Assembly (NCBI RefSeq): GCF_030540775.2
Contig: NZ_CP141266.1
Coordinates: 3,087,001-3,151,000 of the forward strand
From: Flavivirga abyssicola
GTDB lineage: Bacteria; Bacteroidota; Bacteroidia; Flavobacteriales; Flavobacteriaceae
DNA: 64,000 nt
Direction of reading: 5' to 3'
Made by a program: the position numbers and the translations under genes. The notes below the pieces were generated by a model. The model ran no database searches. It saw nothing but the letters and a program-made list of their open reading frames with translations, and was not told where the DNA came from. Of this stretch, positions 1-30,743 are shown piece after piece (position 1 is the stretch's first letter; each line of letters opens with the position of its first letter).

Positions 1-1040
1 CGAGCAGTTCCTTTTATTAAAATACAGTCCACAGGGATGAGTTCCTCGTTTCTGATAAGTAATCGATCACCTTTTTCTATGTCATAGACTTGTATGGATT
101 CTTCTGTGCCTTCTGTAGTGATTTTTGTAATTCCGATAGGGAAATACGATTTGTAATCGCGTTCAAAGGATAAAAAGGTGTATGTTTTTTGTTGAAAAAA
201 CTTTCCTAGTAATAAAAAGAAGATGAGTCCTGTTAAACTATCAAAAAAGCCAGAACCTGCATCGAAAATAATTTCAGCAGAACTTCTTACAAATAATACT
301 AAAACGCCTAAAGCAATAGGGACATCAATATTTAAAATTTTAGATCGAAGCCCTTTAAATGCAGAAATAAAATAATCTTGGGCTGAGTAAAAAACAACAG
401 GAAGTGAAAAGAAAAACATGAGCCATCTAAAAAGGTGTTTGTATTTTTCTATCCAAAAGCCATCTACTTGAAAATATTCAGGAAACGATAAAAACATGAC
501 ATTTCCAAAAGCAAAGCCAGCAATTCCCAGTTTGTATATTAAGGAACGATCAATATGCTTTTTGCCAACACTATAATCGTCTAAACTTATAAAAGGCTCG
601 TAGCCAATACTACTTAATAATGTTACGAGGTTTTTTAATGTAAGTGATTTGCTATTAAAAGTGACTCGGACATTTTTTTTACCAAAATTGACTATGGATG
701 CACTTATAGATGGATTTAGTTTGTTTAAGTTTTCTAAAATCCAAATACAGGAACTACAATGAATATGTGGAATATACAACGTAACTATTTGAGTATCGTC
801 ATTATTAAACTCCAGTAATTGTTCTACAATTTTTGCATTATCTAAAAAATTGTACTTGCCTTCAACATCTTTGGGAGTTGCTCCGGGTGCTTGCTGTAAG
901 TCGTAGTAACAGGTTAAATCGTTTACAGAAAAAATCTCGTAAACAGTTTTACAACCGTTACAACAAAATGACTTCTCATCAAATATTATTGTAGAGGATG
1001 TAGCATCTAACCCACAATGAAAACATGTGTTGTTGCCCAT
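1..1040 (-). CDS. ccoI: Copper-translocating P-type ATPase, CcoI/FixI-like (5' part only)
   Basis: I translated this myself. It starts at an ATG at 1040 and stays open to the window edge, giving about 346 residues. The N-terminus has a Cys-rich segment (CFHCG, then CCNGC), as in FixI/CcoI proteins, followed by a heavy-metal-associated domain with HIHCSSC. Several hydrophobic helices and the start of the actuator domain (IPVDCILIKG) come next. The family exports Cu(I) across the inner membrane for assembly of cbb3-type cytochrome oxidase. The catalytic phosphorylation and ATP-binding domains lie outside the window. It is transcribed divergently from the FNR-type regulator, the usual arrangement for cco/fix genes in Bacteroidota, and the shared intergenic region holds an FNR-like palindrome. 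Identification is firm; the exact substrate is inferred from the family. Confidence 0.9.
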   Translation of the reverse strand, partial: MGNNTCFHCGLDATSSTIIFDEKSFCCNGCKTVYEIFSVNDLTCYYDLQQAPGATPKDVEGKYNFLDNAKIVEQLLEFNNDDTQIVTLYIPHIHCSSCIWILENLNKLNPSISASIVNFGKKNVRVTFNSKSLTLKNLVTLLSSIGYEPFISLDDYSVGKKHIDRSLIYKLGIAGFAFGNVMFLSFPEYFQVDGFWIEKYKHLFRWLMFFFSLPVVFYSAQDYFISAFKGLRSKILNIDVPIALGVLVLFVRSSAEIIFDAGSGFFDSLTGLIFFLLLGKFFQQKTYTFLSFERDYKSYFPIGITKITTEGTEESIQVYDIEKGDRLLIRNEELIPVDCILIKGTA

Positions 1041-1066: not shown

Positions 1067-1110
1067 CAAAAGTCATAAATCATTTCACTTTATAATATGA
1101 TAATTGTCAT
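1067..1110 (-). promoter_or_regulatory. FNR-type site and -7 element for ccoI
   Basis: The palindrome ATGATAATTGTCAT lies at 1097-1110 (ATGA-N6-TCAT). Read on the minus strand, 22 bases separate it from GACTTTTG (1074-1067), a 7/8 match to the Bacteroidota -7 consensus TAnnTTTG. This puts the palindrome centre near -41.5 of the predicted start, the class II activator position. The same 12-base core and the same spacing recur before pflB. The site also lies about 38 bases before the regulator's own ATG, so autoregulation is possible. Confidence 0.65.
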
Positions 1111-1147
1111 GTTTTCTTTATTTTTACACGACGAGTAATTTATTATT

Positions 1148-1825
1148 ATGGGCAAGTGCGAACAATGTATTATTAAGCAGTTTAACTCTCTTAAATCCTT
1201 GACTAAGGATGAGTTAATACGTATTTCAAATTGTAAAACTTCATACACTATAAAAAAGGGCACTGTTATTTTTGAAGAAGGCGAGGCTGTAAATGGCGTT
1301 TATTGCGTTAAGGAAGGCATTTGTAAACTTTCTAAATTAAGTGAAAACGGTAAAGACCAAATAGTAAAAATGGTGGTTAAAGGCCAATTACTGGGGCAAC
1401 GTTCCCTTGTAAGTGACGAGAATTCTAATTTACAGGCAACGGCTTTAAATGATATGGAAGTTTGTTTTATTCCTAAAAGTGAAATAATAGCAGATCTTCA
1501 AAAGAACCCAAAATTTTCATTCGACATATTGAAAGATATGGCGCATGATTTACGGGAAGCCGATGATATTATAGTTAATATGGCACAAAAATCTGTGAGG
1601 CAGCGACTGGCAGAGGCTTTAATATATATACATAATAGTTTTGGAGTGAATCCAGATGGTACACTTAGTGTTTTATTATCTCGTGAAGATTTTGCCAATA
1701 TAGTTGGTACTGCAACCGAGTCGGCGATAAGAGTGTTATCTCAATTTAAAAAAGAAGGACTCATTTCTACTATTGGAAAGCAAATTAAGATTGAGAATAT
1801 AGAAGGTTTAAAACGGATTGAATAA
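1148..1825 (+). CDS. FNR/CRP-family transcriptional regulator
   Basis: A protein of 225 residues with an N-terminal cyclic-nucleotide-binding-type beta-barrel (about residues 25-125), a dimerisation helix and a C-terminal winged helix. The recognition helix carries E191-SAI-R195, matching the Glu and Arg of CRP/FNR DNA readers. Cys4, Cys7 and Cys29 form an N-terminal cluster reminiscent of, but not identical to, the Fe-S ligands of E. coli FNR; Cys53 and Cys59 are further candidates. It sits divergent from ccoI. An identical TGATAATTGTCA core occurs in this intergenic region and before pflB, so it is the obvious candidate reader of that site. Oxygen sensing through a cluster is inferred, not shown. 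Confidence 0.9.
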   Translation: MGKCEQCIIKQFNSLKSLTKDELIRISNCKTSYTIKKGTVIFEEGEAVNGVYCVKEGICKLSKLSENGKDQIVKMVVKGQLLGQRSLVSDENSNLQATALNDMEVCFIPKSEIIADLQKNPKFSFDILKDMAHDLREADDIIVNMAQKSVRQRLAEALIYIHNSFGVNPDGTLSVLLSREDFANIVGTATESAIRVLSQFKKEGLISTIGKQIKIENIEGLKRIE

Positions 1826-25950: not shown

Positions 25951-26298
25951 GTGTTTTTTGTAGAATCTAGATATGCAAAATATGAAATTAAAAATGATTA
26001 TCAAATTGAGTTTGTAAAATAGAATTTAATACAACAGCTTCTGGAAATTTTGATGATTTTAAGACTTTTAATTTCAGGAGCTTATTCTTTATCGTTAAAC
26101 AACTCAAATATTTTATTTTTTTTGAATTATTATGAAAATCATATCTAATTTAAGGTAAAAAATAGCAAAGTTTTATAAAAAAGATGTTTTTATTGAATAT
26201 TTAACATGTGTAAAGGTTAAAAGCTTAAATATTTTTCTGTTAAGACCATGTAACTCAAACGTTTTCGTGAAAAATCTAATCAAAAATACTTGGGTTTA

Positions 26299-26342
26299 CT
26301 GATAATTGTCAGTTTTATAATTAAGCCCAGTATTTACCTTTG
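26299..26342 (+). promoter_or_regulatory. FNR-type site and -7 element of the pfl operon
   Basis: CTGATAATTGTCAG (26299-26312) carries the same TGATAATTGTCA core as the ccoI/regulator region. Exactly 22 bases later lies TACCTTTG (26335-26342), a perfect TAnnTTTG. The palindrome centre is thus near -41.5 of a start around 26346, leaving a 45-nt leader before pflB. The rest of the 441-base gap (25951-26391) shows nothing else I can support. Confidence 0.72.
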
Positions 26343-28649: not shown

Positions 28650-28674
28650 AAGGAGAGTCATGCTCCTTTTGTGG
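28650..28674 (+). promoter_or_regulatory. Hairpin holding the pflA start codon
   Basis: CAAAAGGAG (28650-28658) and CTCCTTTTG (28666-28674) are perfect 9-bp arms. The 7-base gap between them includes the ATG at 28660. The GGAG arm is also the only Shine-Dalgarno-like sequence here, so folding would hide the ribosome-binding region. It may damp pflA translation relative to pflB. Confidence 0.5.
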
Positions 28675-29448
28675 ATACTAAATTTAAAAAGTTGTCTTAT
28701 CAAAACAGAAGAAAACATATTAAGAGTACACTCCATTGAATCCTTTGGAACACATGATGGTCCTGGAATTCGCATGGTTATTTTTTTACAGGGGTGTAAA
28801 TTAAAATGTCTGTACTGTCATAATCCGGATACTATTGAAACGTCTGGAGGTACCTTATACCATATTGAAGAATTGGTGAAGATGGCAGTAAAAGAGAAAC
28901 CCTATTTTGGAAAAAAAGGAGGGGTTACGGTATCTGGAGGAGAGCCTTTATTACAATCTAAAGAATTAGTGCCTTTTTTTAAAAGATTAAAAGAAGAAGG
29001 TATTCATACCAATATCGATACTAATGGTAGAATACTGAATCATTTCACAGAAGATTTATTAGATAACTACGCAGATTTAGTTATGTTGGACATTAAACAT
29101 ATGACAGAGGAAGGTTATGAAGCCATAACTGGGATGCGTAATAAAGAAACTGCTTTTAATTTTGCCAAGCATAGAGAAGCGTCAGGGAAAAAAATGTGGT
29201 TGCGGTATGTGTTGATACCCGAAATTACTAATAAACCTGAGCTTTTACACCAAATGGGGGCATATTTTAAAGAGTATAAAACTATTGAAAAGATTGAGCT
29301 GCAACCTTATCATAAACTAGGTATTCATAAATGGGAAGCTTTAGGTTGGGATTATAAACTTAAGGATGCACGTGAAAATACAAAAGAAGAAATCGATGCT
29401 GCAGTTGAGGTTTTAAAAAATTATTTCAAAGAAGTTAAAGTAAATTAA
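28660..29448 (+). CDS. pflA: Pyruvate formate-lyase activating enzyme
   Basis: A protein of 262 residues, a radical SAM enzyme with the cluster motif C46-x3-C50-x2-C53 (GCKLKCLYCHN). The conserved opening is SIESFGTHDGPGIR and the glycine-rich motif is VTVSGGEPLLQ. It installs the glycyl radical on PflB. The ATG at 28660 gives about 15 more N-terminal residues than E. coli PflA (LLLWILNLKSCLIKTEEN). I found no better in-frame ATG, so a rare start nearer residue 18 is possible. It is the second gene of the pfl operon. Confidence 0.95.
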   Translation: MLLLWILNLKSCLIKTEENILRVHSIESFGTHDGPGIRMVIFLQGCKLKCLYCHNPDTIETSGGTLYHIEELVKMAVKEKPYFGKKGGVTVSGGEPLLQSKELVPFFKRLKEEGIHTNIDTNGRILNHFTEDLLDNYADLVMLDIKHMTEEGYEAITGMRNKETAFNFAKHREASGKKMWLRYVLIPEITNKPELLHQMGAYFKEYKTIEKIELQPYHKLGIHKWEALGWDYKLKDARENTKEEIDAAVEVLKNYFKEVKVN

Positions 29449-29486: not shown

Positions 29487-30743
29487 ATGCAAACACAAAA
29501 ACTTAAAAACCGTTGGTTAATAGCAGCTTCAGCAGTTGGAATCCATATTTCGATTGGGTCTGTTTATGCGTATTCGGTTATGACCAATCCGGTTAAAGAT
29601 ATTTTTGATGTTGATGGAAGCGTTATTAAATGGGCATTTAAAATTGCTATTTTATTATTAGGATTATCAGCAGCATTTTTAGGAAGATGGGTAGAAAAAG
29701 TAGGACCTAAAGTAAGTGGTACAACAGCAGGATTGTTTTATGGAATTGGTATTTTAGGTTCCGGGCTTGCTGTACAATTAGAATCATTAACCTTATTTTA
29801 TTTATGCTATGGCGTTATTGGGGGGATTGGTTTAGGCTTAGGATACATTACACCGGTAAGTACCTTGGTTAAATGGTTTCCAGACAGACGTGGTTTAGCA
29901 ACAGGAATGGCTATTATGGGCTTTGGTTTTGCTGCTTTGGTTTTTGGACCTGTTATGCAATCACTCTTTGACACTGTTGGCGTATCCAATGCCTTTTACA
30001 TTTTAGGAATTATATATATGGTATTAATATTGTCTTCTGCAAGATATATTGAAAGACCACCAGAAGGGTATATGCCAGATGGATTTAAGCCAGGAGAAGG
30101 AAAAACTATAAAGGCAGATATGGCAAATATTGATGCTAATGCCTCTCTGAAAACGCCACGTTTTTATTACATCTGGATTATGATGTTCATTAATATTGCT
30201 TGTGGTATTGCCATTATATCGGCAGCAAGTCCGATGATGCAGGAAAAATTAAATTACACACCTATGGAAGCAGCTGGAATAGTAGGTTTAATAGGCGTAT
30301 TTAATGGTTTAGGTAGAATTATGTGGTCCAGTCTTTCAGATTATTTAGGGCGTGCAAATACATACATTATATTCTTTGCTTTTCAAATTCTGGCATTCTT
30401 TTTCTTACCAAAAATTTCCATGGAAATAGCTTTCTTGGTAGTTCTGTTTACGGTTATTACTATGTATGGTGGCGGATTTGCAACCTTGCCAGCGTTTTTA
30501 GGTGATTTATTTGGAACTAAACAATTGGGGGCGATTCACGGTATGGTATTAGCTGCCTGGGGATTAGCAGGTGTTGTAGGGCCTACAATTTACGATGTTG
30601 TTAAAAATGCCACAGGATCATTGGATGCCACTCTAGAAGTCTTTGCAGGCTTATTTGTTATCGCGTTGATTGTGTCATTATTAATGAAACGTACAGTAAA
30701 TAAAGCGTATAAAAAAATAGATGAAAAATTGAATTTTGCTTAA
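29487..30743 (+). CDS. MFS transporter, oxalate/formate antiporter (OFA) type
   Basis: A protein of 418 residues with 12 predicted membrane helices. OFA-type signatures appear: GSVYAYSV in helix 1, GIGLGLGYITPVSTLVKWFPDRRGLATG and a C-terminal half beginning near residue 225 (FYYIWIMMFINIACG). It is the third gene of the pfl operon, 38 bases after pflA, and is followed by a strong terminator. Many Pfl operons carry the unrelated FocA channel instead. Here this carrier probably exports formate, or exchanges formate or pyruvate, but the substrate is inferred from position only. Confidence 0.9.
   Translation: MQTQKLKNRWLIAASAVGIHISIGSVYAYSVMTNPVKDIFDVDGSVIKWAFKIAILLLGLSAAFLGRWVEKVGPKVSGTTAGLFYGIGILGSGLAVQLESLTLFYLCYGVIGGIGLGLGYITPVSTLVKWFPDRRGLATGMAIMGFGFAALVFGPVMQSLFDTVGVSNAFYILGIIYMVLILSSARYIERPPEGYMPDGFKPGEGKTIKADMANIDANASLKTPRFYYIWIMMFINIACGIAIISAASPMMQEKLNYTPMEAAGIVGLIGVFNGLGRIMWSSLSDYLGRANTYIIFFAFQILAFFFLPKISMEIAFLVVLFTVITMYGGGFATLPAFLGDLFGTKQLGAIHGMVLAAWGLAGVVGPTIYDVVKNATGSLDATLEVFAGLFVIALIVSLLMKRTVNKAYKKIDEKLNFA

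Follow-up and report, generated by a model that had tools for sequence, protein, structure and literature searches.

FNR of Escherichia coli recognizes the site TTGAT-N4-ATCAA, and its cluster cysteines are C20, C23, C29 and C122. At FNR class II promoters, pfl among them, the site is centred at -41.5, the class II position for CRP and FNR activators; a further site lies in FNR's own promoter. Bacteroidota are abundant in seas and guts, and to our knowledge activator-dependent transcription in this phylum is poorly mapped. The housekeeping promoter of one member, Flavobacterium psychrophilum, has a -7 box, TAnnTTTG, mapped to positions -12 to -5 (PMC9723704). The same study reports that under oxygen limitation cbb3 oxidase is strongly up and haem synthesis is up. 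As far as its main text could be consulted, it describes sigma motifs and no activator palindrome, and the strings "crp", "palindrom" and "fnr" do not occur.

The window, the whole 64-kb stretch of the Flavivirga abyssicola genome analysed here, contains two promoters built to one plan: a palindrome, a spacer, and a -7 box. The spacer is 23 bp when counted from the 12-mer TGA-N6-TCA, as below, and 22 bp from the 14-mer. The elements and genes concerned are these:

1..1040, minus strand: open frame truncated by the window edge, which we take to be a ccoI-like copper-transporting P-type ATPase, its start presumably at 1040
1067..1074, minus strand: ccoI -7 box GACTTTTG at spacer 23, found in the sequence by pattern match
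1098..1109, no strand assigned: palindrome common to the divergent ccoI and regulator promoters (14-mer 1097-1110)
1119..1126, plus strand: TATTTTTA, predicted to be the -7 box from which the regulator gene is itself transcribed, 9 bp past the palindrome
1148..1825, plus strand: FNR-like regulator of the CRP/FNR superfamily with C4, C7, C53 and C106
26299-26312, plus strand: pfl palindrome, 14-mer CTGATAATTGTCAG, read from the sequence
26300..26311, plus strand: predicted pfl activator site TGATAATTGTCA, palindromic, predicted centre -41.5
26312..26334, plus strand: pfl promoter spacer, 23 bp (22 bp, 26313-26334, from the 14-mer)
26335..26342, plus strand: pfl -7 box TACCTTTG, its position relative to the start taken from the accessible text of PMC9723704
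26392..28617, plus strand: pfl, formate C-acetyltransferase (TIGR01255, above cut-off)
28660..29448, plus strand: pflA, pyruvate formate-lyase-activating protein (TIGR02493, above cut-off)
29487..30743, plus strand: MFS monocarboxylate transporter, L-lactate type (NF049980, above cut-off), perhaps in one presumed operon with pfl-pflA

An initial annotation of this DNA had described the pfl promoter as palindrome, 22 bases and -7 box, and coordinates 26299-26342 agree. It gave the ccoI promoter the same construction, which can indeed be read at 1110-1067 on the minus strand; a genome-wide scan recovered this element (1067-1110) as 3088067-3088109. Two details needed correction. The cores, said to be identical, are so only by way of the palindrome: the ccoI reading strand carries TGACAATTATCA, which is the pfl core in reverse complement. 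The ccoI box agrees with TAnnTTTG, the motif ascribed to the sigma factor, in five of the six fixed letters. The pfl spacer is T-rich directly 3' of the palindrome, as are 60 promoter strings from the family. On the opposite (minus) strand, the pfl palindrome is accompanied by TATTTTTG at spacer 11 (26281-26311), an arrangement also present in one relative (G008).

Could the shared spacing be a coincidence between two AT-rich promoters? The 12-mer by itself is found at chance level, as that explanation would have it: where 15 two-mismatch matches would be expected in the window, 14 occur, and there are five genomic sites for TGAYAATTRTCA against seven for the reversed pattern. (The palindrome alone was rejected as a site predictor on this genomic count.) A loose pattern of palindrome plus -7 box likewise gave 56 matches in the genome against 66 for its reversed control. 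Spacer 23, however, accounts for fourteen of the 56, whereas any other spacing has 1.4 on average (Poisson P ~3e-10). Since the total is no higher than the control, the signal is the spacing and not the number of matches. Placement adds to this. When open frames of at least 150 aa are taken as ORFs, 13 of the 14 sites with spacer 23 fall outside them, as opposed to four of 25 sites with other spacings (Fisher P 3.5e-6); the 25, of which 21 are inside ORFs, are those of the 42 for which a locus was available. The fourteenth overlaps an open frame only if an upstream ATG is taken as the start. Thirteen of the 14 sites precede a gene.

Relatives follow the same rule. A strict pattern (TGAYAWWTRTCA, a spacer of 8 to 38, then TANNTTTG) was applied to 60 genomes, this one included, and matched 203 times, against 22 for the reversed pattern. 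Among 150 of these that were listed, spacer 23 occurs 102 times, and the remaining 30 spacings together account for 48. A phylum sample of 296 genomes repeats the excess: spacer 23 appears in 82 of the 120 matches listed from other genomes of the family, and in nine of the 21 listed from the same class outside the order. One match with spacer 37 recurs as a near-identical 57-nt stretch in five genomes (G001, G002, G005, G007 and G009); it is probably a conserved coding stretch rather than a promoter.

Retention of the spacing in orthologous promoters had been set beforehand as a test, and the proposal survives it. Orthologues of pfl (E 1e-150 or better) were found in 15 of the 60 genomes; 13 of their promoters contain the palindrome, each time with spacer 23. 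A fourteenth (G025) retains half the palindrome at unchanged distance, and the last (G013) has no palindrome. For the ccoI/regulator intergenic region, 80 named loci were examined, and a palindrome was sought within 150 bp of the regulator. It is present in 67. On the ccoI side of these 67, a side called without locus-by-locus identification of the neighbour, 65 show nAnnTTTG at spacer 23. Thirteen loci have no palindrome within 150 bp; one of these has a single-base variant, and most others, as read, differ in their upstream neighbour. Within the genus, hemN is preceded by a spacer-23 site in all 12 genomes (11 verified, at 85-98% protein identity), and pta by a strict match in ten of the 12 (nine verified, 89-98%). 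The sites and their fixed spacing are thus conserved across the Flavobacteriaceae.

Chance origin is rejected by the reversed-pattern control, the spacing histogram, and the intergenic test. With the histograms alike in this genome and its relatives, with orthologous promoters keeping the distance, and with the spacer-23 sites placed between genes, coincidence has a probability close to nil; the initial annotation had already thought it a hard explanation for the two promoters. The scan of genome and relatives that it called for has likewise borne out the spacing.

What would this spacing mean for transcription? With the -7 box at -12 to -5, a spacer of 23 bases puts the palindrome at -47 to -36, with its centre at -41.5. 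An activator site at fixed spacing and so centred would be a class II site, if the start position is carried over from the F. psychrophilum map; the centre near -41.5 proposed earlier agrees with the -7 box position published there, in the text accessible to us (PMC9723704). The predicted pfl start is then ~26347. In the 60 family promoter strings, T occupies -33 in 82% and -32 in 78%, so that the palindrome borders on a T-rich -33 element. The regulator side has a different geometry: TAnnTTT[A/G] stands 9 bp from the palindrome at 55 of the 67 loci. Relative to the regulator's predicted start, the palindrome would then be centred at -27.5, where a bound dimer should block polymerase. Autorepression is therefore predicted.

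The genes that follow the sites suggest what the sites are for. Gene names here were given by recognition, except for pfl and pflA, which are based on profiles. On that understanding, the regulon predicted from two promoters does exist, with spacer-23 sites standing before: pfl-pflA; ccoI; a ccoS-like gene with ccoNO; hemN and a universal stress protein gene; pta-ackA; nrfHA and a cytochrome assembly gene; and the nosZ cluster. Other sites in this genome are followed, on the same presumption, by a thioredoxin-like gene; by a gene of ~600 aa and then nadA; and, each with a site of its own, by mdh, a metallo-beta-lactamase-fold gene, and a response regulator. The spacer-23 site at 3937922 has what appears to be a lipoprotein gene downstream; at 3588436, no gene was found nearby downstream. 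By our reading, seven of the 13 genes or operons with spacer 23 have plain low-oxygen roles: pyruvate fermentation via formate and acetate, high-affinity oxidase, oxygen-independent haem synthesis, and anaerobic respiration.

Spacer 24 also occurs. It is that of the site at moeA, a gene which adjoins nap. Two overlapping sites, with spacers 23 and 24, lie at genome 2196383-2196457 between the nosZ cluster and an Rrf2-type regulator; we take a cytochrome c gene of the cluster to be on one side and the regulator (spacer 24) on the other. In a relative (G014:C33:500-3600), divergent sites lie between 2-oxoacid:ferredoxin oxidoreductase-like and ferredoxin-like genes. That genome has 20 strict matches of any spacing, and perhaps a larger regulon.

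The regulator encoded at 1148-1825 has the CRP/FNR fold: a cNMP-binding beta-roll (PF00027) followed by a Crp helix-turn-helix (PF13545). Foldseek matched its AlphaFold2 model to Aliivibrio fischeri FNR structures (E 4.4e-13 for 5e44); the model is moderate, with a mean pLDDT of 72.3 and ~50 over the first 20 residues. The promoter architecture had been called FNR-type, a label that needs qualifying. The regulator is FNR-like: its score against the NCBIfam Fnr model (PRK11161.1) is 91.8 bits, against a cut-off of 228, and the third cluster cysteine is missing. In alignment with A. fischeri FNR, the CxxC motif (C4, C7) and the beta-roll cysteine (C106) are kept, Asn13 occupies the position of the third loop cysteine, and Cys53 stands opposite an Ala. 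The FNR layout of three cysteines in an N-terminal loop and one in the beta-roll is therefore not that of this protein.

The four cysteines nonetheless behave as a set. In an alignment of 60 proteins, 55 contain the complete set C4, C7, C53 and C106, five have none of the four, and mixed cases do not occur. The alignment comprised the window protein, 19 of its 30 family homologues, and 40 proteins chosen from the homologue matches (17 families, down to 34% identity). The 11 nearest family homologues were not among the 60; each of the 30 contains the four cysteines. A separate alignment of loci was kept out of the count because its loci had been found with peptide patterns containing these cysteines. 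No other cysteine is universal among the 60. None of the 55 four-cysteine proteins has Cys at position 13, and nine of them have another Cys within residues 8-20. All five exceptions come from one family of the order (f5); cysteine-less homologues of that family are encoded at loci L203-L205, L240 and L241.

The model suggests a possible role for C53. It places C53 in a predicted strand at 50-56 and C106 in one at 103-109; in CRP-type jelly rolls we expect these strands to be neighbours, and C53 could accordingly stand in for the ligand missing from the loop. Joint presence or absence points the same way and, with the alignment to FNR, suggests a relocated [4Fe-4S] ligand in an FNR-like regulator. 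A competing thought is that the four cysteines form a zinc site or a thiol redox switch and that the regulon answers redox or nitric oxide, not oxygen by way of a cluster, since only three of FNR's four ligand positions are kept. Those three positions do match FNR's, however, the four cysteines are kept or lost as a set, and many of the targets are classic low-oxygen genes, so we think this reading unlikely. The fuller proposal is of a Bacteroidota FNR class whose cluster would sit on C4, C7, C106 and a C53 moved from the loop to a beta-roll strand, and which in Flavobacteriaceae would run one low-oxygen regulon throughout the family by a strictly spaced class II arrangement with the TAnnTTTG sigma factor. 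It is put forward tentatively, as a proposal with slightly less than an even chance.

Does this protein read the sites? The genome encodes a second FNR-type paralogue, outside the window (4439247-4439873, minus strand), with a near-canonical CX2CX4C motif, a beta-roll cysteine (VLC), and Phe at position 53. One genome thus holds two FNR-type cysteine layouts. The sites might be class II sites read mainly by this paralogue: it lies ~14 kb or less from the nrfHA and moeA/nap sites, and E and I-R recur at the corresponding places of its recognition helix. Yet the paralogue was not found in seven relatives (G016, G017, G019, G020, G023, G026 and G034), where its best match is the window-type protein, at 32-37%, and strict spacer-23 sites persist in four of them: G016, G019, G026 and G034. 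(Absence is less sure in G026 and G016, which are 84% and 90% complete.) Genes after the sites in these four include hemN, ccoS-like, universal stress protein, OmpW-like and cytochrome c-like genes: hemN and ccoS in G016, ccoS and the universal stress protein gene in G019. The spacer-23 site of G034 has no start codon within 250 bp. Moreover, the window regulator adjoins the palindrome at 67 of the 80 loci. The paralogue is thus quite improbable as main reader, although it may serve some of the regulon, chiefly nrf, nap and nos.

Genomes with and without the window regulator were also compared. With the loose pattern, spacer 23 is in excess in G034 (6 of 47) and G023 (4 of 28), and not in G021 (1 of 28), which has neither protein at ortholog level, or G030 (2 of 43), whose homologue is diverged. 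Three genomes with a homologue (G023, G027 and G030) have no strict matches; in G023 the core found at spacer 23 is a variant one. Across the order outside the family, at least one match of any spacing occurs in nine of 11 genomes with a homologue and in one of 12 without (P 0.0006, though kinship confounds the count). Of the nine, two (G040 and G053) belong to f5, and their matches never have spacer 23. Within the family, the corresponding figures are 29 of 32 and three of five (P 0.13, likewise confounded). In the phylum sample, four family genomes lack a homologue: G111 has two matches and G146 four, of any spacing, and the other two have none. The association of regulator and sites of any spacing is therefore significant across the order and not inside the family, and only partly useful.

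None of 25 matches across six f5 genomes has spacer 23. Thirteen have spacers of 33-35, mostly in TTATTTAGAAT- or ATTCTAAATAA-like context, and perhaps mark the site of another regulator. The idea that f5 keeps the spacer-23 grammar with a cysteine-free homologue was dropped on this count.

Three observations thus favour the window regulator as reader: it is divergent from ccoI across a shared site; sites persist where the paralogue is not found; and the spacing rule is absent in f5, the one family where the regulator's cysteines are lost. This genomic evidence supports assigning the spacer-23 sites to the 1148-1825 protein, the probable reader named by the initial annotation.

These considerations lead to a model that treats the element as a class II activator site joining an FNR-like regulator to the Bacteroidota housekeeping sigma factor. 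When oxygen is low, the 1148-1825 protein, probably dimeric and with an oxygen-labile [4Fe-4S] cluster, would bind TGAYAWWTRTCA centred at -41.5 and touch RNA polymerase at TAnnTTTG. Expression of pfl, cco, hemN, pta-ackA and other low-oxygen genes would then be switched on. The proposed reason for a spacer fixed at 23 bp is that contact with polymerase needs the same face and the same distance. At its own promoter, where the palindrome at -27.5 would fall between the -33 and -7 elements, the regulator would repress itself. As a whole, the explanation by a class II site and the FNR-like 1148-1825 regulator is one that we consider likely.

If so, a rule that can be read from genomes (palindrome, 23 bp, TAnnTTTG) would predict both genes induced by low oxygen and their likely reader, and class II activation at an unusual promoter becomes directly testable. 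Should C53 prove to be a cluster ligand, a very well studied bacterial oxygen sensor would have a new ligand layout. Three things go beyond the initial annotation: the extent of the rule, the cysteine pattern, and the autorepression that the shared palindrome predicts. No such site, spacing or cysteine layout is described in the titles and abstract openings that the searches listed, or in the accessible text of PMC9723704, PMC8510549, PMC12040651 and PMC3520743.

How, then, does the system compare with those already described? Bacillus subtilis Fnr uses three cysteines with aspartate 141 as fourth ligand (PMC3520743, accessible text) and so provides a precedent for an altered fourth ligand; its cysteines lie in a C-terminal extension, whereas those of the window regulator are N-terminal and in the beta-roll. 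Among solved structures, the best match in both fold and sequence is 2GAU, a CRP homologue from Porphyromonas gingivalis, also of the Bacteroidota; the sequence match begins at residue 32, leaving the N-terminal CxxC of the window regulator outside it. The P. gingivalis CRP homologue is described, in the text available, as a cAMP-independent CRP (PMC12040651). With the sigma-A promoters of F. psychrophilum, the sites share the TAnnTTTG -7 box.

FNR of E. coli and A. fischeri is also among the closest described systems. Shared features are the superfamily fold, a CxxC near the N-terminus, a cysteine at the C122 position, and a 14-bp palindrome with TGA...TCA. The -41.5 centre, the pfl target, and the site in the regulator's own promoter are likewise predicted here. 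Unlike FNR, most homologues of the window regulator have Asn or Ser for the third loop cysteine, and the window regulator has a new cysteine where A. fischeri FNR has Ala. The sites, to judge from their sequences, would work with a TAnnTTTG -7 box. They keep TGA-N6-TCA over FNR's 14-bp span, with inner Y/R variable and outer pairs mostly A, C or G/T, not T...A; the two window sites have A or C as outer base, against T in the E. coli FNR box, which qualifies the earlier label of an FNR-type site. The kind of system is thus a known one, of which the sensor layout and the promoter partner are a variant.
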